Part shown: positions 845-61,606 of the stretch, piece after piece
Layout: the number at the start of each line of letters is the position of its first letter
Numbering within the stretch: position 1 is the stretch's first letter
Origin: Prevotella sp.
GTDB taxonomy: Bacteria > Bacteroidota > Bacteroidia > Bacteroidales > Bacteroidaceae
DNA length: 61,750 nt
Direction: 5' to 3'
Assembly: GCA_017447515.1 (NCBI GenBank)
Contig: JAFSNG010000031.1
Coordinates: 1 to 61,750 of the forward strand
The notes under the pieces: generated by a model
Seen by the model: only the letters and a program-made list of their open reading frames with translations
Database searches by the model: none
Told to the model about the DNA's origin: nothing
Position numbers and translations under genes: made by a program

Positions 845-875
845 CTTTTGCCTTTTTACTTTTTTACCTTTCCCA
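845..875. repeat. 7-8-bp T-rich tandem microrepeat
   Basis: TTTTGCC (846), TTTTTAC (853), TTTTTTAC (860), then CTTTCCC. It lies across the stop of the debranching enzyme gene (856) and encodes its KVKK tail. It is the weakest of the arrays because T-richness alone could mimic it. Confidence 0.5.
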
Positions 876-2970
876 CGAGGATCATAATGGAACGAGGGCC
901 GAGGAGCACCTCGCGCTGGTTGTCGGTGAGGGGTTCCGCACCAAGTTCGGCGATAACGTCGGGAGACTCCATGCCGGTATTGGCGAAGACGTGCCAGGCC
1001 ATGCCTTCGGGCAGCTGGGGGAGTTCGAAGCCATGCATCTCCCAGTGCATGTTCATGGCGACGTAGATGAAATCGTCATTATCAACATATTGGCCGTTGA
1101 GGAGGAAGGCAGCGGTGAGGTTGTTATGGCCGGTCTCGGGCTGCCAAGCCTTTACGCCGTGCCATGAGAAGTCGGGGTAGCCCAGGTTGCGATAGTCGGT
1201 GAAACACAGGTGGTCGTCGTAGCGCAAGACCTTGTGCTGACGGCGGAAATGGATCATCTGCTTGAAATAGCGGAAGATGTCGGCATTGCGCTCGAGATCG
1301 TTCCAGTCGAGCCACGCAATTTCGTTGTCCTGACAATAGGCGTTGTTGTTGCCTTGCTGCGAGTTGCCCATCTCGTCGCCCGAGAGCACCATGGGGATGC
1401 CCTGACTGACCATAAGCAGCGTGATGGCGTTCTTCACCTGACGGTGGCGCAGGCGGTTGATGTCGGCGTCGTCGGTCGGACCCTCGCAGCCGCAGTTCCA
1501 GCTGTTGTTGTGGTTTTCGCCGTCGCGGTTGTCCTCGCCATTGGCTTCGTTGTGCTTGTCGTTGTAGGACACAAGGTCCATCATAGTAAAGCCGTCGTGG
1601 GCGGTGACGAAGTTGACGCTGGCCTTGATGCCGCGTTTCTGTGAGGCGTAGAGGTCGGGGGAGCCGATGATGCGCTCCTTGACGTCGGCCAGCACGTCGG
1701 TGTCGCTCTTGATGAAGCGGCGGATGCTGTCGCGGAACTTTCCGTTCCACTCTGCCCAGCGCCCCCATGAAGGGAAGGAGCCTACCTGGTAGAGTCCTCC
1801 TGCATCCCAGGCCTCGGCGATGAGTTTTGTCTTGCCGAGGACGGGGTCGTGGGCGAGCGATTCGAGCAGCGGGGGATTCGACATGGGATTGCCGTTCTGG
1901 TCGCGTCCGAGAATGGCAGCGAGGTCGAAACGGAAACCGTCGATGTGGTAGTCGGTGACCCAGTAGCGCAGGCTCTCGACAATCATGTCGCGCACGTTGG
2001 GGTTGTTGCAGTTCATCGTGTTGCCGCAACCGCTGAAGTTGAAGTACGAGCCATCGGGCGTGAGCATGTAATAGGTCTTGTTGTCGATACCGCGATAGGA
2101 GATGTACGGTCCCTCCTCGTTGCCCTCGGCGGTATGGTTGAAGACGACGTCGAGCATCACTTCGATGCCGTTGGCGTGCAGCTGCTTGACGAGGTTCTTC
2201 AGTTCGTCCACCTGCATGGCAAAGCGTCCCGACGAGGCGTATGCCGCCTTGGGAGCAAAGAAACCGACGTTGCTGTAGCCCCAGAGGTTGTAGAGCGGAT
2301 GGCCGTCGACGGGCGACGGGCGGTAGTTTTCGAATTCGTCGAACTCGTGGATGGGCATCAGTTCCACGCAGTTGACGCCGAGTTCCTTCAGGTAAGGAAT
2401 TTTTTCGACGATGCCTGCAAACGTTCCCTTATGCTTTACGCCAGCGCCTGCTCCGCAGGTGAAGTTGCGCACGTGCATCTCGTAGACGACAAGGTCGTTG
2501 ACGGGCGTCTCCAGCGGCAGGTCGTTCTCCCAGTCGAAGTCGTCGAACACCACGCGTGCGCGGTACTGATATATATTGTCCATATTGGGCTGCTTGCCCC
2601 ATACGTCGCGACCCACGATGAGCTTGGCATAGGGGTCGAGCAGGATCTTCGTCTTGTCGAAGCGATGTCCCTCGGCGGGAATGAACGGTCCGTCCATGCG
2701 GTAGCCGTACTCGATGTTCTCGTAATCCAGGTCGAAGACCATCATCGAGAACACGTTGCCCAGGCGGAACTCCTTGAAGAACGGAATCTCGATGAACGGC
2801 TGCTCTTCGCGGTTGTGGAAGAGCACCAGCGTGCACGAGGTGGCGTAGCGGGAATACACGGAGAAATTGACCGCATTGCCATAGACCGTTGCGCCAAAGG
2901 GATAGGGCCTTCCTGGGCGCAGCTTCAGCCCCTGGTACTCGTGCGTGGGGAAAATATCGACTCTATGCAT
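856..2970 (-). CDS. glgX: Isoamylase-type glycogen debranching enzyme (GH13, GlgX/TreX-like)
   Basis: A 704-residue cytoplasmic enzyme expected to cleave alpha-1,6 branches of glycogen or maltodextrin. An N-terminal CBM48-like domain (about 18-110) precedes the GH13 barrel. Conserved regions are DVVFNH (274-279), GFRFD with the nucleophile Asp349, AEAWD with acid/base Glu386, and AHD with Asp459. No signal peptide is present. The start at 2970 overlaps the end of the STAS gene by 8 nt, so the two are probably translationally coupled. The 3' end carries a short A-rich microrepeat that supplies the KVKK tail. The exact branch-length specificity cannot be read from the sequence. Confidence 0.93.
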   Translation of the reverse strand: MHRVDIFPTHEYQGLKLRPGRPYPFGATVYGNAVNFSVYSRYATSCTLVLFHNREEQPFIEIPFFKEFRLGNVFSMMVFDLDYENIEYGYRMDGPFIPAEGHRFDKTKILLDPYAKLIVGRDVWGKQPNMDNIYQYRARVVFDDFDWENDLPLETPVNDLVVYEMHVRNFTCGAGAGVKHKGTFAGIVEKIPYLKELGVNCVELMPIHEFDEFENYRPSPVDGHPLYNLWGYSNVGFFAPKAAYASSGRFAMQVDELKNLVKQLHANGIEVMLDVVFNHTAEGNEEGPYISYRGIDNKTYYMLTPDGSYFNFSGCGNTMNCNNPNVRDMIVESLRYWVTDYHIDGFRFDLAAILGRDQNGNPMSNPPLLESLAHDPVLGKTKLIAEAWDAGGLYQVGSFPSWGRWAEWNGKFRDSIRRFIKSDTDVLADVKERIIGSPDLYASQKRGIKASVNFVTAHDGFTMMDLVSYNDKHNEANGEDNRDGENHNNSWNCGCEGPTDDADINRLRHRQVKNAITLLMVSQGIPMVLSGDEMGNSQQGNNNAYCQDNEIAWLDWNDLERNADIFRYFKQMIHFRRQHKVLRYDDHLCFTDYRNLGYPDFSWHGVKAWQPETGHNNLTAAFLLNGQYVDNDDFIYVAMNMHWEMHGFELPQLPEGMAWHVFANTGMESPDVIAELGAEPLTDNQREVLLGPRSIMILVGKVKK

Positions 2971-3238
2971 AATCGAAGAAATTATCGAATCCCGTGACGG
3001 ACATGATGTCCTTGACCTCGTCGCTCACGCCCTTCAGATAGATTTTCAGTCCCTTGGCAGCCGCCACCTTCTTGGTATAGAGCAGCACGCGCAAACCTGT
3101 ACTCGATACATAGTTACAGGCCGTCATGTCAAGTACCGCACTACTGCCTTTTTCCAGAATGGCCAGAATGCCATTCTGCACTTCCTGGTAGTTGAAAGAG
3201 TCGAGCTCTTCGCCTAATTTGTAAGTTTCCGTATCCAT
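2963..3238 (-). CDS. STAS-domain anti-sigma factor antagonist (RsbV/SpoIIAA-like)
   Basis: I choose the ATG at 3238, giving 91 residues; the frame extends to a TTG at 3256, but that segment consists of a 7-bp tandem repeat. The protein is a single STAS domain. The segment VSSTGLRVLL aligns with the DSSGLGVLL phosphorylation loop of SpoIIAA/RsbV, so a Ser in VSS is the likely target of the RsbW-like kinase. It lies between the phosphatase gene (stop at 3257) and the debranching enzyme gene, which it overlaps by 8 nt. Expected role: release of a partner held by the kinase when it is dephosphorylated. Confidence 0.88.
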   Translation of the reverse strand: MDTETYKLGEELDSFNYQEVQNGILAILEKGSSAVLDMTACNYVSSTGLRVLLYTKKVAAAKGLKIYLKGVSDEVKDIMSVTGFDNFFDYA

Positions 3239-3246
3239 CGCTATTT

Positions 3247-3267
3247 CAATTATCAATTATCCATTGT
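3247..3267. repeat. 7-bp tandem microrepeat (CAATTAT type), 3 units
   Basis: CAATTAT, CAATTAT, CCATTGT at 3247, 3254 and 3261, across the junction of the phosphatase stop (3257) and the STAS gene start (3238). Includes the phosphatase stop codon. Confidence 0.75.
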
Positions 3268-4417
3268 TTACATACCTGATGGCGAGCATGGTGAGGTCGT
3301 CACTCTGGGGAGCATCACCCACGAACTCGTGTACCGCCTGCGTCATCCGATCTATCTGAGTTTTACAATCCAAATCGCTTTGCAAATGGTCGATGAGCCG
3401 CTGACTGCCAAACTGCTCGTGTCTGTCGGTCATAGCTTCCGTCAGGCCGTCGGTGTAGAGGAACAGCATCGTACCGGCGGGGATGTCGCATTCGCCCAAC
3501 GTGTACGTCGCACTCTCCTCCACGCCGAGAGGCAGGCCAGGCTTGGCGTCGAGGAACTGACCGTTGAAGACGGGCTTGTTGTGACCGGCGTTGCAGTACT
3601 GCAGATGTCCGGTCGCCAGGTCGAGCACGCCGACGAAGAACGTGACGAAGACCATGGTGTCGTTGCCGTCGCTTATGAATTTATTAATGTACGTGGTAAT
3701 CATCGTTACGTCGTCAATATAACTGGCGACGATGCGGAACTGACTCATGGTCTGAGCCATGACGAGTGCAGCGGGTACGCCCTTGCCCGATACGTCGCCG
3801 ATGCAGAAGAACAGCTTGCCGTCGCGGATGAAGAAGTCGTAGAGGTCTCCCCCAACCTCGCGTGCAGGCGTCAGCGAACCGTAGATGTCGAGTCGGCTGT
3901 CGTCAGCGGGCGAATAGGGTTTCGGCAACATCGACAGCTGCATGTCGCGCGCCACCTTCAGCTCTCCTTCCATGCGACCTTTGGCCTCGTTCACCTGTTT
4001 CAGCTCCTCCATCTGCTGCGCCAGCGACTGCTGCATCAGACTGAAGGAATGGCGCAGCCGGTACATCTCGTCGCGGGAATGAATCTCGGGCAGAACGGCC
4101 TGTAGATTGCCGCGCGCCACCTCGTCGACGGCCTTTGTAAACGTGGTCAGCGGCGCAATGAGCCGATGGATGGTGCGTCGCAGCAGATAGGTCAGCAGCA
4201 CCATTGTCAGCAGGAACAACGCCGTCAGTATTATAGCCATCCAACGCATGCCGATGGCATAGAGAATGCCGTTTTCCTGAATGGCGCGGACGATTTTCAG
4301 CACGTAATAATTGCCCACGTAGCCAGATATGCCAAGCACCACGACTACATACAACACCACTCTCAGGGTGATGCGGCTGGCGAGCGACTCACGAATGCGT
4401 GACAGACGGTAGTTCAT
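3257..4417 (-). CDS. Membrane-bound PP2C/SpoIIE-type serine phosphatase with HAMP domain (RsbU-like)
   Basis: 386 residues. Two transmembrane helices (about 17-40 and 59-80) frame a short extracytoplasmic loop and are followed by a HAMP domain (about 80-135), a coiled-coil linker (about 125-160) and a SpoIIE-type PP2C domain. Metal-binding motifs are GGDLYD (Asp191) and GDVSGKG (Asp208). The small periplasmic part suggests sensing in or near the membrane. It overlaps the upstream amylase gene by 4 nt (ATGA) and is next to its likely substrate, the STAS protein. Known role of the family: dephosphorylating STAS antagonists under stress or signal input. Confidence 0.9.
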   Translation of the reverse strand: MNYRLSRIRESLASRITLRVVLYVVVVLGISGYVGNYYVLKIVRAIQENGILYAIGMRWMAIILTALFLLTMVLLTYLLRRTIHRLIAPLTTFTKAVDEVARGNLQAVLPEIHSRDEMYRLRHSFSLMQQSLAQQMEELKQVNEAKGRMEGELKVARDMQLSMLPKPYSPADDSRLDIYGSLTPAREVGGDLYDFFIRDGKLFFCIGDVSGKGVPAALVMAQTMSQFRIVASYIDDVTMITTYINKFISDGNDTMVFVTFFVGVLDLATGHLQYCNAGHNKPVFNGQFLDAKPGLPLGVEESATYTLGECDIPAGTMLFLYTDGLTEAMTDRHEQFGSQRLIDHLQSDLDCKTQIDRMTQAVHEFVGDAPQSDDLTMLAIRYVNNG

Positions 4418-7117: not shown

Positions 7118-7147
7118 CTAGGATTACCTAGGATATCCTAGGAATTC
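7118..7147. repeat. 10-bp tandem microrepeat (CTAGGA type), 3 units
   Basis: CTAG occurs at 7118, 7128 and 7138, an exact 10-bp period (CTAGGATTAC, CTAGGATATC, CTAGGAATTC). It fills the rnfE-rnfA gap, and the rnfE stop codon (TAG, minus strand, 7138-7140) lies inside the third unit. Confidence 0.85.
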
Positions 7148-7722
7148 TTAAGTTTATTAACAATCGCAATGAGGAATCCCAGCATGATGAACGCTCCCGG
7201 AGGAAGCACAAAGAGCAGGATGTTGTACGTCTCGGGCAACAGCATGAAGCCGAACACCGAGCCGGAACCTAAGATTTCGCGGCAGACACCCAGCAGCGTC
7301 AGACCCAGCGTGAAGCCGAGGCCGATGCCTATGCCGTCGAACAGCGACGCTACGGGCGAGTTCTTCGCGGCGAAAGCCTCCGCACGGCCGAGGATGATGC
7401 AGTTCACCACAATCAGCGGAATGAACAGTCCTAGGGCGGCGTCGATGTCGGGCAGGTAGGCCTTGATGACCAGCTGCAACATCGTCACGAAGGCGGCGAT
7501 GACCACGATGAATACGGGGATGCGCACCTTGTCGGGTGTCACCGACTTCAGGCACGAAATCACAACGTTGGTACAGATGAGCACGGCCATCGTTGCCAGG
7601 CCCATCGACATACCATTCATGGCAGAGGTGGTAGTGGCCAGCGTCGGACACATACCGAGCATCAGGACGAACGTCGGGTTCTCCTTGATGATGCCATTTT
7701 TGATGATACTTATATAACTCAT
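7138..7722 (-). CDS. rnfE: Rnf complex membrane subunit RnfE
   Basis: 194 residues, multi-spanning, homologous to RnfA and NqrD. Typical segments are NGIIKENPTFVLMLGMCPTLA at the start (the Cys is the conserved iron-sulfur ligand position) and GLFIPLIVVNCIILGRAEAFA. It forms the pseudo-symmetric membrane pair with RnfA. It starts 8 nt after the rnfG stop, and that junction is itself a 9-bp tandem repeat. Its own stop codon lies within another microrepeat, so its last residues (KNS) are specified by repeat-adjacent sequence. Confidence 0.96.
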   Translation of the reverse strand: MSYISIIKNGIIKENPTFVLMLGMCPTLATTTSAMNGMSMGLATMAVLICTNVVISCLKSVTPDKVRIPVFIVVIAAFVTMLQLVIKAYLPDIDAALGLFIPLIVVNCIILGRAEAFAAKNSPVASLFDGIGIGLGFTLGLTLLGVCREILGSGSVFGFMLLPETYNILLFVLPPGAFIMLGFLIAIVNKLKNS

Positions 7723-7750
7723 AAATCCGTTTAATCCGTTAAATCCGTTG
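7723..7750. repeat. 9-bp tandem microrepeat (AATCCGTTT type), 3 units, forming the rnfG C-terminus
   Basis: Three nonamers (AATCCGTTT, AATCCGTTA, AATCCGTTG) with CC at 7727, 7736 and 7745. On the minus strand they encode the last residues of RnfG (TTDLTD) and its TAA stop, so a gene terminus is built from the repeat. Confidence 0.85.
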
Positions 7751-8372
7751 TTTTCTCTTGTTTTGTAGCGCCGGTTTCGCCGTCCGTGGCGGGCGTCGTC
7801 TTATAGGCGTTATACGCATTGTTGACGGCCAGGAGGAACGCGCGGCTGGTAATGGTCGACGCCGTGATGGCATCCACCTGACCGCCGTCCTTCGACACGG
7901 TCAGCGGCTCCTTCGGGTCCTTGCCGATGATGTCGCCCTTAGCGCCCTTCTGGAACCACTTATCAGCCTTGGCACCCAGCCCCGGCGTCTCGCTCTGTTC
8001 CAGCAGCGTATAACCGAGAATCTTTCCCTCGGGGTCGAAACCCACGAGCACTTTCAAGTTGCCGCCGAAGCCCATCGTGGTGCTCTTCACCGCGGCACCG
8101 AGGTCGTTGCCCTGAGCGTCCTGCACCTGATAGACGGTGAACGTCATCTCCTTGCCCTTAGCGTCGTTCTGCTTCACCTCGTCGGTCTTCGCCACCTTGA
8201 GGTCGTTACACGCCATGACGGCCTTGATACCGTCAGCCAGCGCCTTCTCCTTCTGTTGTGCAATGGGGCCCTCGGTCAGATGGTTCACATAAGCGAGGAT
8301 GCCACCCATGATGACTGCTACCAGCGTCAGTACCAGCACCATATTCATTAAAGATGATTCAAGTTTCTTCAT
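7731..8372 (-). CDS. rnfG: Rnf complex FMN-binding subunit RnfG
   Basis: 213 residues: one N-terminal transmembrane helix (about 10-30) and a periplasmic FMN-binding domain. The motif DAITASTITSRA matches the site where FMN is covalently linked to a threonine in RnfG/NqrC. After about residue 190 the tail is low-complexity (TTPATDGETGATKQEKTT) and ends in TDLTD, encoded by a nonamer repeat. It overlaps rnfD by 4 nt. Role: electron transfer from RnfD flavin through the periplasmic-side flavin during ion-coupled ferredoxin oxidation. Confidence 0.95.
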   Translation of the reverse strand: MKKLESSLMNMVLVLTLVAVIMGGILAYVNHLTEGPIAQQKEKALADGIKAVMACNDLKVAKTDEVKQNDAKGKEMTFTVYQVQDAQGNDLGAAVKSTTMGFGGNLKVLVGFDPEGKILGYTLLEQSETPGLGAKADKWFQKGAKGDIIGKDPKEPLTVSKDGGQVDAITASTITSRAFLLAVNNAYNAYKTTPATDGETGATKQEKTTDLTD

Positions 8373-9361
8373 TTTGTGACCTCCCCGAAACGTTTTGGTT
8401 TGACATAAGTGTTAATAAGCGGCGTGAACGCATTCATTATCAGAATGGCGAACGACATTCCCTCGGGATAGGCACCCCAGTTGCGGATGACGATGGTCAG
8501 CACGCCGATGGCCACGCCGTAGATGAGCTGGCCCTTGGCTGTCATCGGGCTCGTCACGTAGTCCGTAGCCATGAAGATGGCGCCGAGCATCAGACCACCG
8601 GAGAAGATGACTGCAAACGGGTCGGCATAGGCGGGATTAGCCAAGTGCATCAGTGCAGCGAGGACGAACACCGTGCCGATGATGGACACGGGGATGTGCC
8701 ACGTGATGATATTCTTCCAAAGCATGTAGGCCAGGCCCAGCAGCAGTGCCAGCGCGCAAATCTCACCCATCGCGCCGCCACCGTCGGGATGGTTGCCGAG
8801 GAAGAGTTCGAGCGACGAGGGCAGCTGGTCGAGCAGCGAGGCGTCGCCATGCTTGATGGCATCCTTCATGATAGCCAGCGGCGTAGCACCCGTCTCGGCA
8901 TCCAGATAAGCCCAACCCTGACCGACTATCGGCCACGTGGTCATCTGAGCCGGGAAGGCCACCAGCAGGGCTGCACGGCCCACCAAGGCAGGATTGAAGA
9001 GGTTATTGCCCAATCCGCCGAACGTCATCTTGGCCACACCGATGGCGAACAGCGCGCCGATGATGATGATCCAGACAGGCAGGTTGCTGGGCAGGTTGAA
9101 GCCGAGCAGCAGACCGGTCAGGATGGCCGAGCCGTCGCAAACGGTCGTGCGCTCGTTCTTCATCATAAACTTATTGATGGCCCACTCGAAGAATACGCAG
9201 GCCGCAACGCTCGTAGCACAGACAATGGCCGAGCCAATGCCGAAGAACCAGAACGACACGAGCAAGGCAGGTATGAGGGCAATGATGACCCCGTACATAT
9301 TCTTCTCGACGGTGTCAGTCCCGTGTGCGTGAGGCGAAAGTGATACAATTAATTTTCCCAT
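8369..9361 (-). CDS. rnfD: Rnf complex FMN-binding membrane subunit RnfD
   Basis: 330 residues, about 9-10 transmembrane helices, related to NqrB. The segment ETGATPLA contains the threonine to which FMN is attached in RnfD. It opens with the typical MGKLIVSLSPHAHGTDTVEKNMY. It overlaps rnfG by 4 nt and is separated from rnfC by 36 nt made mostly of an 8-bp tandem repeat. This is the main ion-translocating membrane subunit. Confidence 0.95.
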   Translation of the reverse strand: MGKLIVSLSPHAHGTDTVEKNMYGVIIALIPALLVSFWFFGIGSAIVCATSVAACVFFEWAINKFMMKNERTTVCDGSAILTGLLLGFNLPSNLPVWIIIIGALFAIGVAKMTFGGLGNNLFNPALVGRAALLVAFPAQMTTWPIVGQGWAYLDAETGATPLAIMKDAIKHGDASLLDQLPSSLELFLGNHPDGGGAMGEICALALLLGLAYMLWKNIITWHIPVSIIGTVFVLAALMHLANPAYADPFAVIFSGGLMLGAIFMATDYVTSPMTAKGQLIYGVAIGVLTIVIRNWGAYPEGMSFAILIMNAFTPLINTYVKPKRFGEVTK

Positions 9362-9367
9362 TGTTTT

Positions 9368-9407
9368 ATTTCACAATTTGACTATTTCACGATTTAACTA
9401 TTTCTTA
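9368..9407. repeat. 8-bp tandem microrepeat (ATTTnACn type), 5 units
   Basis: Five octamers starting at 9368, 9376, 9384, 9392 and 9400: ATTTCACA, ATTTGACT, ATTTCACG, ATTTAACT, ATTTCTTA. They occupy the rnfC-rnfD gap and include the rnfC stop codon (9398-9400, TAG on the minus strand). Confidence 0.85.
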
Positions 9408-10765
9408 GCCGCACGAGCGCGGATGATTCCCATGACGGTCGACTTGGCCTGACGGATGTTGTCGAGCAGCGGACGGTGGGCAGGACACGTGAACTGACAC
9501 GAGCCGCACTCGATGCAGCTGACAACTTCTTCCTTCTCAGCACGCTCCCAGTTCTGGACGGCAGCGAGCTTGGCCAGCAAGTAGGGTTCAAGGCCCATCG
9601 GACAAGCCGAGACGCACTTCGCACAGCGGATACAGGGCTGCGGTTCCTTGCGGAAAGCCTCGTCGTCGGAGATGATGGTCACCGAGTTAGTACCCTTGCA
9701 GATGGGCACCTCGACGCTTGTCAGCGCCTTACCCATCATCGGACCGCCAGCCAACAGTTTGTTGTCGCCCTCGGGCATACCGCCACAGGCATCGATGAGG
9801 TCCTTCATCGGCGTGCCCATACGAACTTGGAAATTGCCCGGGTGAGCCAGTTTCTTGCCCGTCACGGTGGTATAGCGCTCAAACAAGGGCTTGTTCTTCA
9901 TCACAGCCTCGTAGACGGCGAAGGCAGTTCCTACGTTCTGAACGATGGCGCCGACGTTGACGGGAATGGCGGGAGGCGCTGGTACCTGACGATTGATGAC
10001 AGCATCCACGAGCTGCTTCTCACCGCCCTGCGGATAGCGCTGCTTCAGGGGCACGACCTCGACGGTGTATTCCGAAGTGCCGAACACTTCGGCACACTTG
10101 CGTGTGAGCAATTCGATGGCGGGCATCTTGTTGGTCTCGATGCCAATGTAGCCTTTGGTCACCTTCGCACCCTTCATCAACAACTCCAAACCCACGAGGA
10201 TTTCGTCGGCATGCTCCATCATCAGACGGAAGTCAGCGGTGATGTAGGGCTCGCACTCTACGGCATTGATAATCACGCACTCGGCCTTGGCCGTCGGCGG
10301 CGGACATAATTTAATAAAGGTGGGGAAACAGGCACCGCCCATACCCACGACACCAGCGGCCTTGATGCGCTCAACGATTTCCTCGGGCGTCAGTTCGGGA
10401 TGGTCTTTCACCAGTTCCAGCTTGTCAGAGCGGTCGATGTTTTCTTCCCACTCGTCACCTTCTACATTAATAATAATAGCGGGCTTACGATAGCCAGTGG
10501 CATCGATAGCAGTGTCAATCTTGAATACAGTACCGCTGACGCTAGAGAATATCGGAGCTGACACGAAGCCGCCAGCCTCGGCAATCAGCGTACCGACCTT
10601 CACCTTGTCACCCTTGGCGACAACAGGCTTTGCGGGAGCGCCAATGTGCTGACTCAACGGGAAGATGGCCTGCTCCGGCAGCGCAGCCAACTTGGTTTCA
10701 ACGTCGTGCGTCAGTTTATTCTCTTCGGGGTGTACACCACCAATACGGAATGTTCTTACGTTCAT
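9398..10765 (-). CDS. rnfC: Rnf complex NADH/FMN and iron-sulfur subunit RnfC
   Basis: 455 residues. The N-terminal barrel and flavin/NADH domain (about 40-330, with GVVGMGGACFPTFIKL near 155-170) is followed by two [4Fe-4S] motifs: CIRCAKCVSACP and CIECGSCQFTCP. RnfC is the peripheral subunit that passes electrons to NAD+. It is within the usual size range and lacks the long repetitive C-terminal tail found in some gamma-proteobacterial RnfC. It overlaps rnfB by 4 nt. Confidence 0.96.
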   Translation of the reverse strand: MNVRTFRIGGVHPEENKLTHDVETKLAALPEQAIFPLSQHIGAPAKPVVAKGDKVKVGTLIAEAGGFVSAPIFSSVSGTVFKIDTAIDATGYRKPAIIINVEGDEWEENIDRSDKLELVKDHPELTPEEIVERIKAAGVVGMGGACFPTFIKLCPPPTAKAECVIINAVECEPYITADFRLMMEHADEILVGLELLMKGAKVTKGYIGIETNKMPAIELLTRKCAEVFGTSEYTVEVVPLKQRYPQGGEKQLVDAVINRQVPAPPAIPVNVGAIVQNVGTAFAVYEAVMKNKPLFERYTTVTGKKLAHPGNFQVRMGTPMKDLIDACGGMPEGDNKLLAGGPMMGKALTSVEVPICKGTNSVTIISDDEAFRKEPQPCIRCAKCVSACPMGLEPYLLAKLAAVQNWERAEKEEVVSCIECGSCQFTCPAHRPLLDNIRQAKSTVMGIIRARAAKK

Positions 10766-27022: not shown

Positions 27023-27062
27023 CTAGGGGACTAGATAATCTAGAGATTCTAGAGGTTCTAGA
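27023..27062. repeat. 9-bp tandem microrepeat (TCTAGAnnn type), 5 units
   Basis: CTAG at 27023, 27031, 27040, 27049 and 27058: one 8-bp and three 9-bp steps. It fills the gap between the rubrerythrin stop (27063) and the lipoprotein start, both on the minus strand. Each CTAG carries a TAG on both strands. Confidence 0.85.
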
Positions 27063-30770: not shown

Positions 30771-30782
30771 ATATTTTTGACG

Positions 30783-30810
30783 TTTGAAGTTTAAAATTTG
30801 AAGTTTATGA
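30783..30810. repeat. 7-bp tandem microrepeat (TTTGAAG type), 4 units
   Basis: Units TTTGAAG, TTTAAAA, TTTGAAG, TTTATGA start at 30783, 30790, 30797 and 30804. It lies in the queA-nadE gap. Confidence 0.8.
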
Positions 30811-32036: not shown

Positions 32037-32039
32037 CGT

Positions 32040-35286: not shown

Positions 35287-35300
35287 ATGCGGTAGCAAAT

Positions 35301-35328
35301 TATTCACTTTTCACTATTCCCTTTTTAC
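35301..35328. repeat. 7-bp tandem microrepeat (TATTCAC type), 4 units
   Basis: TATTCAC, TTTTCAC, TATTCCC, TTTTTAC at 35301, 35308, 35315 and 35322, in the gap between the two Bat fusion genes. Confidence 0.8.
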
Positions 35329-35334
35329 ATTAAC

Positions 35335-38056: not shown

Positions 38057-39100
38057 TTAACTCAACAGTTGATATACATTATATATAACATAGCAGAAGA
38101 GCACCGCTGCGACAACGGCAATCACTGCTATCACGGCCTTCAACACGCGACGCTCCTTCTGCGAACGCTGATCGGCGGCAGAAAGCACAGGCTTCTGCAC
38201 CTCTTCCGTCGGCTGGTTCTCGAGCTTCGTCTGGTTGATGAAATCGATGGCACTCACGAGGTTGGCGTCGTTCTCGTTCACCAGCGTAGAATATTTGGCG
38301 AACTTCACCAGGTCGGCAGTGCTAAACAGCTGGCGCAACTCGTCCAGACTCTGTTGGTCGCCCTGCGACATCAGGCGTTCGATAATCTCGCTACTGGTCA
38401 TTTCCATTGCAGAGAATCCGTAACGCTCCTCAATATACTTACGCAGCGTCTCGGTCAGCTTCGTATAGTATTCTTTCTGGTCTTCCGACGACACCATCTT
38501 GTCGGCCTTGATTTGCTCAATCTCCTTCATCGCCTTCTGATGAGGCAGCAGGCGGCGCACAATCTTGATATGGGTGATGATGGGCTTGTTGTCGCGCAAC
38601 CGCAAGTAGAGCCAGTATCCCAACGCCAGCAACAGCAACAACAGCACGCTCAGCCAAAACAGCAGGCTCCAGTCGCTCCACTGGAAGGGACTGTCCTGCA
38701 CATCTTTAGGTCCGAAGAAGGCGTTCATCTGCGTCGTGTCAACTTCCACCTCTACCACTTTCAGTGCCAGCTCCTCGGTTTTCACCTCCTTGCCGTTGAC
38801 CTTGACCGCAAATGGCGGCAGCGGATAGAGGTTGCCGTCGAACGAGGTCAGAATAATCTGCATCGTGTTCCACGTCGGATGCTGCGTGTTGATAACCTCA
38901 ACGCCCGGCACCACCATCTGTCGCGCCTTCAACTGGGGCCATTCTATCTTGGCTCCCTCGTCGGCATCGACAGTCAGCATCACCTGCGCCTGCTCGCCTA
39001 TCATCATTTCAATAGGATTGATGACAGCTTTAACGCTTGCTTGCGCCATCGCAAGCAACGTACTGATAATCAACCCTATAAAAATCAACGTTCTTTTCAT
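38057..39100 (-). CDS. BatD-related membrane protein of the Bat operon
   Basis: 347 residues. A signal peptide (MKRTLIFIGLIISTLLAMAQ), a beta-rich periplasmic domain (about 20-130), a transmembrane helix (about 148-168), a helical cytoplasmic region (about 175-310) and a last transmembrane helix near the C-terminus. This layout is usual for the extra protein between the DUF58 and batA genes in Bacteroidales. It shares 1 nt with the DUF58 stop (TAATG). The function within the complex is not known to me. Confidence 0.8.
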   Translation of the reverse strand: MKRTLIFIGLIISTLLAMAQASVKAVINPIEMMIGEQAQVMLTVDADEGAKIEWPQLKARQMVVPGVEVINTQHPTWNTMQIILTSFDGNLYPLPPFAVKVNGKEVKTEELALKVVEVEVDTTQMNAFFGPKDVQDSPFQWSDWSLLFWLSVLLLLLLALGYWLYLRLRDNKPIITHIKIVRRLLPHQKAMKEIEQIKADKMVSSEDQKEYYTKLTETLRKYIEERYGFSAMEMTSSEIIERLMSQGDQQSLDELRQLFSTADLVKFAKYSTLVNENDANLVSAIDFINQTKLENQPTEEVQKPVLSAADQRSQKERRVLKAVIAVIAVVAAVLFCYVIYNVYQLLS

Positions 39101-39969
39101 TAGCTTCTTTGTTTAAACAGCATCAGCAATGCCTTCACATAGTCATCATTGGTAGCAATACTGACCAGGTCGACATTACTCTTGTTCATCGTTTCGCGCA
39201 GCACTTCCTGACGCTGGCGCCAGTACTTTTCGTGAGCCTGACGCAGGCGTTTGCTCGACGTGTCAATATACTGCTCGTAACCCGTCTCGGCATCCACCAC
39301 GCGCATCAGTCCGACATCGGGCAACTCGCGGGCGCGCTGGTCGTAAACCTGCAAAGCCACTACGTCGTGTTTGCGGTTGGCAATCTGCAGGGGCTGCAGG
39401 AAGTCCTGACGGTCGTAGAAGTCGCTCAGCACGAAGGCTGTGCAGCGACGCTTCGACACGCTGGTCAGAAACTCCAGTGCCTGCTTCACGTCCGTACGCT
39501 TCGACTGCGGATGGAAGTCCAGCATTTCGCGGATGATGTAAAGGATGTGCTTGCGGCCTTTCTTGGGCGGGATATACTTTTCTATGCGGTCGGAGAAGAA
39601 CGCCACGCCGATTTTGTCGTTGTTCTGGATGGCCGAGAAGGCAATGGTAGCGGCAATCTCCGTCACCATGTCGCGCTTCATCTGACGCTGCGTGCCGAAA
39701 TCCAGCGAACCGCTGACGTCAATCATCAGCATCACCGTCAGCTCGCGCTCCTCCTCAAACACCTTCACGTAAGGGCGGTGGAAGCGGGCGGTCACGTTCC
39801 AGTCAATATCGCGGACATCATCGCCGTACTGATACTCGCGCACCTCCGAGAAGGCCATACCCCTACCCTTGAAGGCGCTGTGGTATTGCCCTGCGAAGAC
39901 GTTCGAGCTCAGCCCGCGAGCCTTAATCTCAATCTTCCGTACTTTTTTTAATATCTCACTTGTTTCCAT
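39100..39969 (-). CDS. DUF58 domain protein of the MoxR/Bat operon
   Basis: 289 residues. Contains the DUF58 signature (SNVFAGQYHSAFKGRGMAFSEVREYQYGDDVRDIDWNVTARF) and a VWA-like fold with DVSGSLDFG. There is no signal peptide, and it is likely at the cytoplasmic side of the membrane. DUF58 proteins are almost always encoded next to MoxR AAA ATPases and are thought to act with them as chaperone-like modules. The gap to moxR is filled by a 9-bp TCTAGA repeat. Confidence 0.92.
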   Translation of the reverse strand: METSEILKKVRKIEIKARGLSSNVFAGQYHSAFKGRGMAFSEVREYQYGDDVRDIDWNVTARFHRPYVKVFEEERELTVMLMIDVSGSLDFGTQRQMKRDMVTEIAATIAFSAIQNNDKIGVAFFSDRIEKYIPPKKGRKHILYIIREMLDFHPQSKRTDVKQALEFLTSVSKRRCTAFVLSDFYDRQDFLQPLQIANRKHDVVALQVYDQRARELPDVGLMRVVDAETGYEQYIDTSSKRLRQAHEKYWRQRQEVLRETMNKSNVDLVSIATNDDYVKALLMLFKQRS

Positions 39970-39976
39970 ATCGTTA

Positions 39977-40012
39977 TCTAGATGTTCTAGAATATCTAGA
40001 GTTTCTAGAATC
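39977..40012. repeat. 9-bp tandem microrepeat (TCTAGAnnn type), 4 units
   Basis: CTAG at 39978, 39987, 39996 and 40005, exactly 9 bp apart, filling the moxR-DUF58 gap up to the moxR stop codon. Confidence 0.9.
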
Positions 40013-41006
40013 AGGGCACTTCCACTTTGTTAATTATCTTCGAGACGATTTCCTCGCTCGTCACATTCGAGGCCTCGGCTTCGTAAGTCAGTCCGATGCG
40101 GTGGCGCAGCACGTCGTGAGCAATGGCGCGAACGTCCTCAGGCACCACATAGCCGCGACGCTTGATGAAGGCGTAGGCGCGGGCTGCCTTGGCCAAATTG
40201 ATGGAGGCACGGGGCGAACCGCCGAACGATATCATGTCCTTCATATCCTTCAGGCCATAGCGGTCGGGATAGCGCGTGGCAAACACGATGTCGGCAATAT
40301 ACTGCTCAATCTTTTCGTCGATATACACCTCGCGAACCACCTGACGGGCTTTCAGAATCTCGTCGGAAGTGGTTACGGGACGCACCTTCGGCAGCGATTC
40401 CTGGATGTTCTCGCGGATAATCTTCTTTTCCTCATCGATGGTCGGATAGCCGATGACCACCTTCAACATGAAACGGTCCATCTGCGCCTCGGGCAGCGGA
40501 TAGGTGCCTTCCTGCTCGATAGGGTTCTGCGTGGCCATTACCAGGAAGGGGTTCGGCAGTTCGAACGTGTCGCTGCCAATTGTCACCTGCTTTTCCTGCA
40601 TGGCTTCCAGCAACGCACTCTGCACCTTCGCCGGAGCACGGTTGATTTCGTCCGCCAGCACGAAGTTGGCAAACACGGGGCCGCGCTTCACCTGGAACTT
40701 TTCTTCTTTCTGCGAGTAAATCATCGTACCCGTCACGTCAGCAGGCAGCAGGTCGGGGGTAAACTGAATGCGGCTGTACGTCGCGTCAATCAGCTGAGCC
40801 AACGTCTTGATAGCCAGCGTCTTTGCCAGTCCCGGCACACCTTCCAAGAGGATATTACCATCACTCAGCAGACCAATCAACAGCGAGTCCACCAAATGCT
40901 TCTGTCCTACAATCACCTGATCCATGCCCGAAACCAAGTTCTGCACGAATCCACTCTGTTGTTCTATCCGAATGTTCAATTCACGGATGTCAATAGCTTC
41001 TGCCAT
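40011..41006 (-). CDS. moxR: MoxR-family AAA+ ATPase
   Basis: 331 residues. Walker A is GVPGLAKT (about 75-82), with Walker B LADEINRAPAKVQSALLEAMQE and sensor region ATQNPIEQEGTYPLPEAQMDRF, all typical of MoxR. It is the first gene of the Bat operon and has a TAnnTTTG promoter at 41053-41060. It is expected to act as a chaperone-like ATPase for the VWA-domain Bat proteins. Confidence 0.96.
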   Translation of the reverse strand: MAEAIDIRELNIRIEQQSGFVQNLVSGMDQVIVGQKHLVDSLLIGLLSDGNILLEGVPGLAKTLAIKTLAQLIDATYSRIQFTPDLLPADVTGTMIYSQKEEKFQVKRGPVFANFVLADEINRAPAKVQSALLEAMQEKQVTIGSDTFELPNPFLVMATQNPIEQEGTYPLPEAQMDRFMLKVVIGYPTIDEEKKIIRENIQESLPKVRPVTTSDEILKARQVVREVYIDEKIEQYIADIVFATRYPDRYGLKDMKDMISFGGSPRASINLAKAARAYAFIKRRGYVVPEDVRAIAHDVLRHRIGLTYEAEASNVTSEEIVSKIINKVEVP

Positions 41007-43028: not shown

Positions 43029-43061
43029 ATACTCTGTCAATTATTTAGTAAGACAGAGTAT
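43029..43061. promoter_or_regulatory. 10-bp inverted repeat over the -33 region (candidate operator)
   Basis: ATACTCTGTC (43029-43038) and GACAGAGTAT (43052-43061) are perfect inverse copies separated by 13 bp. The left arm abuts the -33 TTG, so a bound dimeric protein would block the DUF7833 promoter. Confidence 0.6.
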
Positions 43062-43125
43062 GAATTAGTATGAATTAATAAAAGAAAAATTTGATTTAGT
43101 AAGGACGTTACTAAATTTTAGTAAG
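43044..43125. repeat. Four copies of a TTTAGTAA motif
   Basis: TTTAGTAAG occurs directly at 43044-43052, 43095-43103 and 43117-43125, and inverted at 43108-43115. The second and inverted copies form a 9-bp inverted repeat (43094-43116) that overlaps the stop codon of the gene ending at 43111. Confidence 0.65.
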
Positions 43126-46749: not shown

Positions 46750-47556
46750 TTATATTTTGCCTGCTCTCGCTAATTCGCAGGCTTCATAATACGTATCTAA
46801 ACTTCCAATGTCGAACCTTCCGGCACTCATCTTCCAGGCGTGCATAGTAGTATGTTCCACCATATAATGCGCCAAGTTGCCTGGAGCATCCTTGCCACAC
46901 CCGTTCTCTACGGAATGCCGCACCAAGTCCAAGTCCTTCTTCATATATATATAAAAAGGTGGAACGGCCCAGTGACTCTTTGGCACTTGAGGCTTCTCCT
47001 CCATACCAAGCACCTTGTTGTCAGCATCCAACTCTACGACGCCTGTGCGTTGCAGTCTCTCAATCGAGGGCTGCTCGTGGCACATAATGCAACTCGTTCC
47101 TTTCGCCTTGGCAAAGTCCACGAACTCCTGAAACGAGAAGAACAACAGATTATCCGCCGCAACGACCAGCATATCATCATCTATCTGCAATTTCTCCATC
47201 GCAAACAGCAAATCACACACCGCCCCTAAACGGGTTTCATTGGTCTCAGTCCCGTCATCAACAATGGTGATGGGCTTCACCCATCTACGGTCTGAGGTCT
47301 GAGGTCTAAGGTCTAAGGTCTCTTCGCCTTTGACCGAGTCCCTTTGACCTTGGTCTTTCGCCCATTGGGCGAATATCGGTGCGAACTTGTGATTCGTGAT
47401 AATGATGTGCTCGTCAATCTCCGGAATCCGATCGATATCATCCAGCATCCGACCCAGAATCGTATTCTCACCTATCTTCAGCAACGGCTTCGGAAAGTTC
47501 TTCGTCAACTCCCCCAACCTCGTTGCATACCCTGCCGCTATAACTATATTCTTCAT
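46750..47556 (-). CDS. Sugar-phosphate nucleotidyltransferase
   Basis: 268 residues. The N-terminal signature AAGYATRLGELTKNFPKPLLKI is the NTP-binding loop of NDP-sugar pyrophosphorylases. Later motifs include VAADNLLFF and GTSCIMCHEQ. It probably activates a sugar-1-phosphate for the same surface glycan; base and sugar specificity are unknown. Residues about 69-92 (around DLRPQTSDRRW) look like an insertion compared with the family and are encoded partly by a 7-bp tandem repeat at 47289-47321. Confidence 0.85.
   Translation of the reverse strand: MKNIVIAAGYATRLGELTKNFPKPLLKIGENTILGRMLDDIDRIPEIDEHIIITNHKFAPIFAQWAKDQGQRDSVKGEETLDLRPQTSDRRWVKPITIVDDGTETNETRLGAVCDLLFAMEKLQIDDDMLVVAADNLLFFSFQEFVDFAKAKGTSCIMCHEQPSIERLQRTGVVELDADNKVLGMEEKPQVPKSHWAVPPFYIYMKKDLDLVRHSVENGCGKDAPGNLAHYMVEHTTMHAWKMSAGRFDIGSLDTYYEACELARAGKI
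47289..47321. repeat. 7-bp tandem microrepeat (GGTCTGA/GGTCTAA type) inside the nucleotidyltransferase gene
   Basis: Units start at 47289, 47296, 47303, 47310 and 47317, exactly 7 bp apart. They are translated in frame as LDLRPQTSDR on the minus strand. A nearby doubled CCTTTGACC (about 47327-47350) extends the low-complexity segment. Confidence 0.85.
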
Positions 47557-47588: not shown

Positions 47589-48842
47589 TTAATTCTCCAA
47601 CGATTCTTTATACCACTCGAATAATTTCCGAACGCCATCCTCAATCTCCACCTTATGCGTCCAACCCAGCGAATGCAACTTGCTTACATCTATCAGTTTA
47701 CGCATAGTTCCATCAGGCTTGCTGACATCGAATTTCACCGTGCCTTCAAAGCCCACGGCTTTCACTACCAGCTCGCTCAGTTCGCGGATGGTGAGTTCTT
47801 TGCCAGTACCGACATTGATATGGCAGTTGCGAATCTCACCCAGGCTGGGGATGTAACCACCACGGCCTGCGCTGTGGTTGCGGTCAACTGCACCGTCGGT
47901 GCTGGCGCCATAGTGTACTGAACTGTATTTCTCGATACCGATGATGTCGCTGAAGTTCACATTCAATAGCACATGCACGCTGGCATCCGCCATGTCTTCA
48001 GACCACAGGAATTCGCGGAGGGGTTTGCCTGTGCCCCACAAGACGACCTTGTTGTCATAGATTCCATACTTAGCGAGAACACGAAGGACTTCTTCTTTTT
48101 TAGACGAACACGGATTGCACGAATCTAACGAATCTTTTTTAGAGTCAAGAATTTGAGAATTAGAGAATTCATTTCCTGAGAGGCCTGCGCCGGTGACGCC
48201 TTCGACAGGGCGTTTGTTCAGGTCGATGGCTATCTTGTCCCAGGCTCCATCGTGAATGAGCTTGGCCAGATACACCTTGCGCATCATAGCCGGCATCACG
48301 TGCGAGTTCTCCAAATGGAAGTTGTCGTTGGGACCATAGAGGTTCGTGGGCATTACGGCAATGTAGTTGGTGCCGTACTGAAGGTTGTAGCTCTCGCACA
48401 TCTTCAGGCCAGCAATCTTCGCAATGGCATACTCCTCGTTGGTGTATTCCAACGGGCTCGTCAGCAGGCAGTCCTCCTTCATGGGCTGGGGTGCATTTTT
48501 GGGATAGATGCAGGTGCTGCCCAGGAACAGCAGTTTCTTCACGCCGTGGGCATACGCCTCGCTGATGACGTTGCACTGAATCTTCATGTTCATCATGATG
48601 AAGTCCGCCCTGTACAGCATATTCGCCATGATGCCGCCAACAAAAGCTGCCGCCAGCACCACTGCATCGGGCTTCTCTTCATCGAAGAACTTCTTGACAG
48701 CATTTTGATCCGTCAAGTCCAACTCCTTGTGCGAACGGCCAACAAGGTTATTATAACCACGTTGCTTTAAATTATTCCATATCGCTGAACCCACAAGGCC
48801 GTTGTGACCAGCAACGTATATCTTAGAATTCTTATCTAACAT
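47589..48842 (-). CDS. fcl: GDP-L-fucose synthase with an in-frame insertion
   Basis: 417 residues, longer than the usual ~320-390. SDR motifs: GHNGLVGS (12-19), active-site Ser109 in GSTCIYP and Tyr138xxxLys142 in YAIAK. It epimerises and reduces GDP-4-keto-6-deoxymannose to GDP-L-fucose. Between RPVEGV (211-216) and EEVLRVLAKYG (250-260) there are about 30 extra residues (GNEFSNSQILDSKK, SCNPCSSKK) encoded by 9-bp and 8-bp tandem repeats. The frame is maintained and both flanks match normal Fcl. It follows gmd by 30 nt. Confidence 0.92.
   Translation of the reverse strand: MLDKNSKIYVAGHNGLVGSAIWNNLKQRGYNNLVGRSHKELDLTDQNAVKKFFDEEKPDAVVLAAAFVGGIMANMLYRADFIMMNMKIQCNVISEAYAHGVKKLLFLGSTCIYPKNAPQPMKEDCLLTSPLEYTNEEYAIAKIAGLKMCESYNLQYGTNYIAVMPTNLYGPNDNFHLENSHVMPAMMRKVYLAKLIHDGAWDKIAIDLNKRPVEGVTGAGLSGNEFSNSQILDSKKDSLDSCNPCSSKKEEVLRVLAKYGIYDNKVVLWGTGKPLREFLWSEDMADASVHVLLNVNFSDIIGIEKYSSVHYGASTDGAVDRNHSAGRGGYIPSLGEIRNCHINVGTGKELTIRELSELVVKAVGFEGTVKFDVSKPDGTMRKLIDVSKLHSLGWTHKVEIEDGVRKLFEWYKESLEN
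48110..48170. repeat. 9-bp (3 units) and 8-bp (3 units) tandem microrepeats inside fcl
   Basis: Nonamers ACGGATTGC, ACGAATCTA, ACGAATCTT start at 48110, 48119 and 48128. Octamers AGAATTTG, AGAATTAG, AGAATTC start at 48148, 48156 and 48164. Together they encode most of the extra peptide in fucose synthase. Confidence 0.85.
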
Positions 48843-48872
48843 CTTTCTGCGTTTTCTGCAATTTCTGCGGGA

Positions 48873-58253: not shown

Positions 58254-58280
58254 GAATCAGATAAAGGTAAAAATAAGAAT

Positions 58281-59132: not shown

Positions 59133-59156
59133 TGTGTTCGACGGTTTCCCGTCGAA
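59130..59156 (+). repeat. TTCGACGG hairpin element, copy 1
   Basis: TAGTGTG then TTCGACGG (59137-59144), loop TTTC, CCGTCGAA (59149-59156): a perfect 8-bp stem. It begins at the hisG stop codon. Confidence 0.85.
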
Positions 59157-59168
59157 AAAAGAAACAGT

Positions 59169-60452: not shown

Positions 60453-60476
60453 TGTGTTCGACGGTTCTCCCATAGA
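60450..60476 (+). repeat. TTCGACGG hairpin element, copy 2 (decayed)
   Basis: TAGTGTG, TTCGACGG (60457-60464), TTCT, CCATAGAA. The right arm has two changes relative to copy 1, so the stem is imperfect. It begins at the hisD stop codon. Confidence 0.8.
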
Positions 60477-60483
60477 AAAATAA

Positions 60484-60511
60484 TAGTGTGTTCGACGGTT
60501 CAGCCGTCGAA
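60484..60511 (+). repeat. TTCGACGG hairpin element, copy 3
   Basis: TAGTGTG, TTCGACGG (60491-60498), loop TTCAG, CCGTCGAA (60504-60511): perfect 8-bp stem. It lies between copy 2 and the hisC start. Confidence 0.85.
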
Positions 60512-60528
60512 ATAAAAAAGAAAAGACA

Positions 60529-61566
60529 ATGATGAAGCCCTTAGAACAACTGGTCAGAAAGAACATCTGGAGTCTCGCCCCCTACTCTTCCGCTCGCGAC
60601 GAGTATTCAGGCAAGGAAGCTCACGTCTTTCTCGATGCCAACGAGAATCCCTATAACGAGCCTTACAACCGCTATCCCGACCCTCTGCAACGCGAACTGA
60701 AAAGCGCCTTGAAGAAGGTAAAGGGCGTGCCCGAGGAGAATATCTTCCTGGGTAACGGCAGCGACGAAGCCATCGACCTCGCTTATCGCGTATTCTGCAA
60801 TCCCGGTCGCGACAACGTGGTATCCATCGCTCCAACTTACGGCATGTATCAGGTCTGTGCCGACATCAACGACATCGAGTTTCGTCAAGTTCTGCTTGAC
60901 GACAATTACGAGATGCATGCCGACCAGTTGCTGGCAGCCTGCGACGACCATACAAAGATCATTTGGATTTGCTCGCCTAACAATCCTACAGGCAACTCGC
61001 TCAACCGCGACGAAATTTTGAAGGTCATTAATGGTTTTGAGGGAATTGTCATTGTCGACGAAGCTTACATCGACTTCGCCCAACAGCTCTCACTACGCCA
61101 GGAACTCGCCACCCACCCCAACCTCATTATCCTTCAGACGATGTCGAAGGCTTGGGGGTCGGCAGCTATCCGTCTGGGCATGGCTTTCGCCTCGAAGGAC
61201 ATCATTAATATATATAATAAGGTGAAATATCCCTACAACGTCAACCAGCTCACCCAGCAACAGGCGATGGTGATGTTGAAAGACCCCTTCGAAATCGATA
61301 AATACGTCAAAATCCTGCTTGCCGAGCGTGGCCGGCTGATGTCCGCCTTCCAGGATTTGCCCATCTGCGAACAGGTGTACAAGACAGATGCCAACTTCTT
61401 CCTGGCAAAGATGACCGACGCGCAGGCCATCTATGACTATCTCGTTGACAAAGGCATCATCGTCCGCAACCGCACCCGCGTCCAGCTCTGCCACAACTGT
61501 CTGCGCGTCACCATCGGCAATCGATCCGAGAACAACGAACTGCTCAGTGCATTAAGACAATACTAG
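60529..61566 (+). CDS. hisC: Histidinol-phosphate aminotransferase
   Basis: 345 residues (344 if the second ATG at 60532 is used). Fold type I PLP aminotransferase: [41 protein letters not shown], and the PLP lysine in [14 protein letters not shown]. It makes histidinol phosphate from imidazole acetol phosphate. The stop TAG at 61564-61566 is inside a 9-bp TCTAGA array. Confidence 0.95.
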
Positions 61567-61606
61567 ATTGTCTAGAATATCTAGATTATCTAGAGTCTCT
61601 AGTTAA
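61562..61606. repeat. 9-bp tandem microrepeat (TCTAGAnnn type), 5 units
   Basis: CTAG at 61563, 61572, 61581, 61590 and 61599, exactly 9 bp apart. It fills the hisC-MFS gap and includes the hisC stop. Confidence 0.9.

Follow-up and report, generated by a model that had tools for sequence, protein, structure and literature searches.

Short tandem arrays with 7-, 8- and 9-bp units recur at gene junctions and inside genes of rumen-type Prevotella in words that differ between species

An excess of heptamer repeats in bacterial genomes has been known since 2007 and slippage has been proposed as its source; long simple sequence repeats with 5–11-nt units are the corresponding description (Mrazek 2007, as cited in PMC4679880 and PMC4692102). 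According to the sections of the papers on which we draw, three further systems come close. Heptamer direct repeats of the TAACTGA type, intergenic and hugging start codons, occur in Beggiatoaceae, Cyanobacteria and five Bacteroidetes, among others (MacGregor 2015, PMC4679880). GGGAATC and GGGGA(T/C)T heptamers are found in Xanthomonas and Nostoc, with 186 repeat patterns in one Xanthomonas genome (PMC4692102). The miniature inverted-repeat transposable element (MITE) BrickBuilt of Porphyromonas gingivalis has a 23-nt unit, occurs 19 times in one strain and always lies at least 49 nt from coding sequences (PMC4596501). Here we analyze short tandem arrays in a stretch of 61,750 nt from a Prevotella sp. 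genome that is 61% complete (assembly GCA_017447515.1, contig JAFSNG010000031.1, positions 1–61,750; hereafter the window). A preliminary description of the window had listed 15 such arrays and knew of no named class in Bacteroidales. The latter statement has to give way to the TAACTGA repeats, which a literature search among open-licence papers for an earlier description in Prevotella or Bacteroidales returned as the closest match.

Arrays were detected with an ungapped lag-match finder for periods 6–11 and compared with 100 shuffles in which dinucleotides were kept within each gene or gap; gene models come from a home-made coding model, so that some starts and classes are approximate. At a score of at least 10 the window contains 16 arrays against 0.7 in the shuffles (maximum 2), and 10 of the 15 listed arrays are recovered. 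The numbers are 41 against 7.5 (maximum 15) with 14 of 15 recovered at a score of at least 8, and 65 against 28.5 (maximum 43) with all 15 recovered at a score of at least 7, where the chance contribution is no longer small. The array class is real and far beyond chance, and all 15 listed places exist. Taken singly, the arrays at 845, 30783, 35301, 39977 and 48110 are weak by this finder; Tandem Repeats Finder (TRF) scored the first four with 38, 41, 32 and 42 (60 at period 18 for the fourth), and near 48110 it reported only the portion 48148–48169. In 389 kb of the same genome, comprising the window and 20 further stretches, 49 arrays were found against 1.0 by chance. A separate count by period gave observed and shuffled numbers of 31 and 1.0 for period 7, 14 and 1.0 for period 8, and 19 and 0.8 for period 9; the other periods gave 0 and 0.6 (5), 4 and 0.6 (6), 2 and 1.0 (10), 1 and 0.6 (11), and 5 and 0.8 (12). 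Heptamers are the largest class (31 of 90 arrays at periods 4–14), and this tandem excess with heptamers as the commonest unit is the hallmark of long simple sequence repeats. Fixed units of 7, 8, 9 or 10 bp had been proposed; those of 7, 8 and 9 bp stand, but a 10-bp class is not supported because of the low count at period 10.

The array class is limited to one lineage, the rumen-type Prevotella around Xylanibacter ruminicola and P. communis; the named relatives are these two species and Prevotella metagenome-assembled genomes (MAGs), many with rumen or ruminant names. At score 12 this genome (G000) has 12.6 arrays per 100 kb, and relatives reach 18.9 (G265), 22.6 (G309), 20.9 (G097), 26.1 (G007), 10.0 (G071) and 10.0 (G281). 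A Bacteroidales-wide class was not found: other members of the same GTDB genus are poor in arrays (3.7 in G010, 2.5 in G016, 1.2 in G266 and in G201), four other families range from 1.2 to 3.7 per 100 kb, and 50 kb of Escherichia coli scanned at score 12 had no arrays. In a set of 80 loci, mostly of about 20 kb and 1.49 Mb in total, periods 7, 8 and 9 account for 132, 41 and 52 arrays, periods 5, 10 and 11 for 2, 3 and 7, and periods 6 and 12 for 15 and 38. Loci that are more closely related to the window tend to be denser in 7- and 8-mers (rho 0.36), but 27 of the 80 contain none of these (7 of 43 near, 20 of 37 far). An assembly artefact can be rejected: named strains have arrays too, among them P. 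communis E15-14 with its complete chromosome, and two X. ruminicola strains differ by a clean gain.

Six orthologous junctions were compared in 29 to 83 species each, with shuffled spacers as null. At score 10 they carry 34 arrays against 0.7 in shuffled spacers, written in 28 different words; at score 7 they carry 55 against 7.4, in 46 words. One of the six, at 32037, showed no array excess over shuffled spacers. The gap before the NAD synthase gene (array 30776–30806) has other words or lengths in relatives. In the gap between the MoxR and DUF58 genes (39970–40010), read by eye in this genome and 29 relatives, 17 of the 30 loci have a clear array and one has a two-unit trace; ten lack a spacer, with overlapping stop and start codons, and two have an array-free spacer. 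The words in this gap are, among others, TCTAGAnnn, ACTAGTnnn, ACTAGGnnn, AGGTAAG, GATTAAA, TTGAACA, ATGCATA and AATTAGG. The idea that short tandems are repeatedly written is supported for units of 7, 8 and 9 bp, with words varying by place and, at orthologous junctions, by species. Base-for-base conservation was mostly not seen, with the array 39970–40010 as an exception that is weighed below. As a separate observation, the CTAG-centred 9-mers of this gap and of loci L053, L054, L058–L060, L064 and L066 have outer bases that co-vary (TCTAGA, ACTAGT, ACTAGG) and a variable spacer, and neighboring units could form 6-bp hairpins with 3-nt loops. Short GC-rich palindromes, e.g. GCGGGCTTTGCCC or GCGCGAAGCGCGC, adjoin several arrays of G007 (L280–L284, L093–L094).

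Relatives of about 93% identity differ by the clean presence or absence of arrays, and this includes two named X. ruminicola strains. Along 13.3 kb, G265 and G309 share 93.3% identity, and each of the five indels of at least 5 nt between them involves arrays: two arrays located in stop-to-start gaps, one CTCACCT array within a gene (33 nt, placed in QueA from its position beside another located array), one array-core-inverted-array stretch and one 7-nt step. A 20-nt TTGAACA insert of G309 is missing at the same gap, orthologous to 32691, in G265 and in this genome. At the MoxR/DUF58 junction of X. ruminicola Ga6B6, TGA and TGG are separated by a 31-nt TAGTGAA array that strain D31d lacks; by our reading, the start codon thereby turns into GTG. 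Many indels in the remaining close pairs are not arrays; most of those in the X. ruminicola strain pair lie within one coding-repeat stretch, and the sole indel between L203 and L204 is a coding repeat.

Words are shared between loci and between species, and the vocabularies are lineage-specific. The 225 heptamer arrays comprise 103 distinct canonical heptamers and form 386 identical-unit pairs, against 72 when letters are shuffled within units (maximum 101 in 500). The pattern TTGAACNTTGAACNTTGAAC, made of TTGAACN triples and searched with up to 2 mismatches, has 324 matches in G265, 295 in G071, 16 in G007 and 0 in G266, overlapping matches included; the reversed pattern as control gave 0–14 per genome. 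The 24-nt core of the Ga6B6 insert has exact copies at two further places in Ga6B6, and a 15-nt part of it was read, within the stretches covered, at five loci of this strain whose flanks are unrelated and where it always precedes a start codon on the sense strand.

Arrays also contribute to proteins. The words CTCACCT and TTCACTA encode L, S, T, F, P and I and build signal peptides, such as that of BatD in the window. In QueA the segment TRxLxIxxxxLxIxATR, whose residue pattern suggests a beta-hairpin, has the same length in 42 of 58 species. It is written with AATTAAG in this genome, ACGTTGA in G265 and G309, AATTAGA in G007 and AATGCAT in L155, i.e. with four words in five array-bearing species, two of which are sisters; L190 is a weak case and the other species have no array at the score used. 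Judged from sequence, the segment is replaced and not simply inserted, because its length is constant while the words are unrelated.

The explanation that accounts best for these findings, and which we hold with about as much confidence as doubt, is recurrent template switching or slippage with a 7–9-nt hop, filtered by tolerance. DNA copying would re-use its template after a hop of 7, 8 or 9 nt, repeatedly. A local hop would add units or overwrite the following bases with the previous unit, a hop to a similar array elsewhere would spread lineage-specific words, and a hop to the opposite strand would place a reverse-complement word nearby. Tolerant sites, namely stop-to-start gaps, signal peptides and tolerant protein segments, would retain the product. 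We infer template switching as the writer because it would account in a single process for added units, overwriting at constant length, the movement of words and inverted copies. Ordinary replication slippage only, by which chance two-copy seeds would expand in weakly constrained DNA as proposed for bacterial 5–11-nt repeats, could draw on the known heptamer excess attributed to polymerase slippage (PMC4679880, PMC4692102, in the parts cited here) and on the unit-step changes that do occur. However, for two of the gains, that of G309 (gap orthologous to 32691) and that of Ga6B6 (MoxR/DUF58), the empty sister site contains by our reading nothing that could have seeded the new word, words are shared across loci and species, leader and signal-peptide words can be complementary (see below), and the class is restricted to one lineage. 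We therefore regard slippage as unlikely to suffice.

The location of the arrays was determined for 115 arrays of seven array-rich genomes, with rates computed by hand: 37 lie in 37.1 kb of co-directional gaps, 5 in 13.9 kb of divergent and 4 in 7.1 kb of convergent gaps; coding sequence (about 700 kb) holds 64, and the other 5 are at contig edges. Per kb, co-directional gaps hold about 2.8 times as many arrays as divergent gaps (p = 0.024). The absence of arrays from divergent regions, noted in the preliminary description, is correct for the window but not for the genomes, and the proposed specificity for junctions was not borne out: arrays are also found in divergent and convergent gaps, signal peptides and enzymes, and the co-directional excess is moderate. 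Exclusive targeting of co-directional junctions is unsupported after normalizing by length. Because arrays occupy all these places, their location looks like tolerance, and we propose that it is set by tolerance with a moderate co-directional excess. A second set, in which some loci were picked for having arrays, has 74 co-directional-gap arrays (periods 7–9, score of at least 10, nine genomes). The upstream stop codon is no more than 15 nt away for 57 of these and the next start codon for 41, the hallmark of the TAACTGA type; on the sense strand 56 are purine-rich and 10 pyrimidine-rich. With the same selection of loci, 15 of 19 arrays in the first 120 nt of genes are pyrimidine-rich, and the rest of the genes shows no such bias (39 and 33 of 78 arrays). 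The purine fraction is 0.616 in gaps with arrays and 0.570 in gaps without (p = 0.001); purine-richness is therefore partly general, as array-free gaps are purine-rich too.

In some genes, leader and signal peptide carry complementary words. Seven genomes with 334 arrays, in stretches not picked by word, contain 30 neighboring pairs, of which 12 are inverted, 2 the same and 16 unrelated; G265 and G309 share two pairs by descent. A biased set that includes pattern-picked loci gave 21 inverted and 5 same pairs. In G097, six of eight neighboring same-period pairs are reverse complements, where 0.5–1.1 are expected from its own vocabulary and 0 of 2000 draws were as high. For BatD, 80 orthologues were located, and 55 with a gap of 12–140 nt were tested after a duplicate and a near-duplicate had been set aside. 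The leader of a species pairs with its own signal peptide at −20.0 kcal/mol, against −17.3 kcal/mol when partners are permuted (0 of 5000); the 18 orthologues with signal-peptide arrays gave p = 0.0008, and the 37 without gave a weaker p = 0.003. The BatD of the window is outside the 22 strongest pairings. The strongest, with a leader-to-signal-peptide duplex of −67.6 kcal/mol, is that of L177 (MAG RGIG1522), formed by a long non-tandem inverted repeat (CCCTCCC..AAAGGGAGGG type); because this repeat is no tandem array, the pairing is not limited to arrays. Among 19 folded pairs, six of them pattern-chosen or beside such a locus and with two G265 and two G309 pairs representing the same loci, 18 had z-scores of −3.1 to −9.2, and the likely start codon was between the arms or within the first arm in about 10. 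From these predicted folds, the mRNA of some genes could fold around the start codon via reverse-complement leader and signal-peptide words. Expression in P. bryantii fell fivefold when a structure of −5.2 kcal/mol covered the Shine-Dalgarno position, as stated in the part of that study used here (PMC3155529), and by analogy a regulation of translation by leader/signal-peptide hairpins is plausible. A strand-switching copy error would yield such complementary pairs as well.

Several observations weigh against template switching as the writer, or limit what it explains. The 20-nt insert of G309 has near matches elsewhere in that genome but no second copy that is exact, so that copying from a donor is unproven there. 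The QueA data cannot separate substitution from balanced deletion and insertion. The array 39970–40010 is identical at 41 of 41 positions in G000 and G265, although the flanking gene ends are only 84–89% identical; plain neutrality would not predict this, which points to constraint on some of the arrays, this one included. The TCTAGAnnn arrays keep their core while nnn varies, which plain slippage would not predict. Inverted pairing is significant alone in G097 only and not in the other six genomes (1 of 11 in G007), and the BatD permutation leaves in the effect of one species favoring one word at both places. Finally, no writer gene was found among the candidates tested, i.e. RVT_1 reverse transcriptases, Y1 transposases, Y-family polymerases, MutS and a third MutS relative.

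Neither Y1 transposases nor Y-family polymerases separate array-rich from array-poor genomes. Loss of MutS was rejected, as a full-strength match is present in 25 of 28 genomes, 13 of them array-rich, and missing in three array-rich draft genomes (G000, G317 and G318). The third MutS-family protein (about 600–690 aa) occurs in 11 of 12 genomes grouped as array-poor, and a full gene is missing from all but one of the 16 grouped as array-rich, G000 being incomplete. In a retest with 72 genomes (16 with and 56 without the gene; eight short loci dropped) the overall p was 0.12; the far group behaved as expected (p = 0.005) and the near clade showed the opposite trend (2.1 vs 1.4 per 10 kb, p = 0.07). 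The protein does not track array density, and due to the overall result and the opposite trend we read its pattern as shared ancestry. The gene is patchy in Prevotella (L341:376–2178, L344:1800–3611, L342:2104–4023 and L340:2014–3915, about 600–640 aa); the proteins have a MutS_V and sometimes a weak MutS_III domain, without an NCBIfam model above cut-off, and G097 retains only a 147-aa remnant.

A bolder form of the template-switching explanation, which we put forward tentatively and with more doubt than the basic form, is that an active writing process with a fixed 7–9-nt hop carries words along the strand, from one locus to another and over to the opposite strand. It would overwrite gaps, signal peptides and the QueA segment at constant length and wrap the start codons of secreted proteins in hairpins whose arms change in step, with words differing by species; such a process would both mutate the genome and set translation of the secretome.

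That the arrays are selected functional elements, i.e. purine-rich leaders or binding sites near the start and leader/signal-peptide hairpins regulating translation of secreted proteins, seems to us improbable as a general account, to about the same degree as slippage. The way in which arrays hug stop and start codons, the higher purine fraction of array-bearing gaps, the folding of 18 of the 19 partly pattern-chosen pairs, the identical array 39970–40010 and the reduced expression by structure at the Shine-Dalgarno position in P. bryantii (PMC3155529, in part) would all be expected of functional elements. Nevertheless, orthologous genes carry many different words or none, array-free gaps are purine-rich too, arrays lie in QueA and in genes of unrelated function, and a strong structure 20 bp upstream of the start is reported not to have been inhibitory in P. 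bryantii (PMC3155529). Much less probable are small mobile palindromic elements whose arms are arrays and which would spread and then decay to single arrays. Array-core-inverted-array units do exist, e.g. in a 187-nt indel of G265, and a minisatellite-bearing MITE is described for Porphyromonas gingivalis (PMC4596501, in the sections used). However, the listed cores of inverted pairs differ and several include the host gene's start codon and signal peptide, neighboring pairs are few, and Y1 transposases do not split array-rich from array-poor genomes; empty sites in five close pairs, compared with regard to target-site duplication as in MITEs, had ambiguous boundaries. A telomerase-like reverse-transcriptase system writing tandem DNA, comparable to DRT10, which reportedly makes tandem-repeat DNA with a non-coding RNA (PMC12632851), is very improbable: RVT_1 is present in the array-rich G265, G309, G097, G281, G315 and G323, but it is found in 14 of 28 genomes, is absent from the array-rich G007, G071 and G316–G322 including the complete P. 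communis E15-14 (G321), has 6 and 19 matches in the array-poor G010 and G325, and each genome contains many different words.

The arrays of the window itself illustrate the range of positions. The 8-mer array TTTTACCT (846–871; TRF score as above) lies in the gap between the minus-strand genes 430–843 and 856–2970. A 7-mer array TCAATTA (3246–3265, TRF) covers the stop codon of a SpoIIE/HAMP gene (3257–4417). In the Rnf-Nqr region, CCTAGG palindromes at 10-bp spacing (7118–7143, TRF; the unsupported period) are located in the gap after a subunit gene (7138–7722), the 9-mer array TAAATCCGT (7722–7749, TRF) covers stop and start between this gene and 7731–8372, and an 8-mer array ATTTnACn (9367–9404, TRF) fills the gap between an RnfC-like gene (9398–10765) and an RnfD/NQR2-like gene (8369–9361). 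TCTAGAnnn 9-mers occur directly after the stop of a rubrerythrin-like gene (27063–27620; array 27031–27062, TRF), in the gap between the MoxR (40011–41006) and DUF58 (39100–39969) genes, which they fill (39975–40011, TRF), and over the stop of an aminotransferase gene (60529–61566; array 61559–61602, TRF). The 7-mer array before the NAD synthase gene (28845–30770) has the word TTTGAAG (TRF; weak in lag-match). Two arrays were absent from the preliminary list, a two-copy 10-mer at 43057–43077 (TRF) and a 9-mer array TTTCTGCnn at 48844–48868 (TRF) in the gap 48843–48872.

The remaining arrays are assigned to the minus strand. A 7-mer array within queA (30825–32036) at 31634–31667 is in frame and encodes ELRIKNEELRV. 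In BatD, the hydrophobic part of the signal peptide (ISLTSYFSPLTS) is encoded by a CTCACCT array at 35206–35243 (TRF), and a weak 7-mer array (35303–35325, TRF; found by lag-match at score 7 only) lies in the leader of the same gene (gap 35287–35334). Another CTCACCT array (35968–35996) forms a hydrophobic segment before the TPR part of a VWA/TPR (Bat-like) gene (35335–37038); VWA and TPR are in one frame here and in some near relatives, and several others stop before the TPR part. Within a nucleotidyltransferase gene (46750–47556) there is a 7-mer array TCAGACC (47284–47321, TRF), and within an epimerase gene (47589–48842) an 8-mer array AGAATTnG (48148–48169, TRF). Two neighboring gaps (59133–59168 and 60453–60528) contain another type of short repeat, in which the string TGTGTTCGACGGTT is followed by an inverted part.

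The lineage offers many arrays in close species and in named strains (X. ruminicola, P. communis), and because empty sites, gains and word changes fall at known orthologous junctions, origin, hop length and templating become directly measurable. The arrays also show a route from DNA-level repeats to new coding sequence, as seen in signal peptides of the CTCACCT and TTCACTA type and in the QueA segment rewritten at constant length. Cyanobacterial short tandemly repeated repetitive (STRR) sequences share the heptamer preference and the lineage-patchy occurrence with the Prevotella arrays, a likeness of kind only, compared by description. For STRR and long simple sequence repeats, the descriptions, as far as they are covered by the sections used, mention neither rewriting at the same site nor pairing of leader and signal peptide. 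BrickBuilt resembles the arrays in its Bacteroidales host and in having a tandem repeat inside an inverted-repeat unit, and is unlike them in its 23-nt unit and its distance of at least 49 nt from coding sequences (PMC4596501, in part). The Xanthomonas and Nostoc heptamers are alike in having degenerate units, in lying mostly at the same genes in related species with other length and sequence, and in including inverted repeats; they differ in being a single G-rich, quadruplex-forming motif, whereas the common words in Prevotella are A/G-rich or A/T-rich mixtures (PMC4692102, in part). Like the present arrays, the TAACTGA repeats have relatives without repeats at the same junction and place stop codons in all frames. 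However, that system, as far as the sections used describe it, has one dominant word, related heptamers being rare as repeats in the same genome (PMC4679880). TAACTGA (canonical AACTGAT) is not among the 40 commonest heptamers listed from the 225 heptamer arrays, and no one-word dominance was found. Compared with the TAACTGA system as there described, the Prevotella arrays use many words, periods of 7, 8 and 9 and lineage-specific vocabularies, they are frequent in signal peptides and in QueA, and they form complementary leader/signal-peptide pairs. In conclusion, the arrays differ from known heptamer repeats by a many-word, lineage-specific vocabulary, by replacement inside genes and by complementary leader/signal-peptide pairs.

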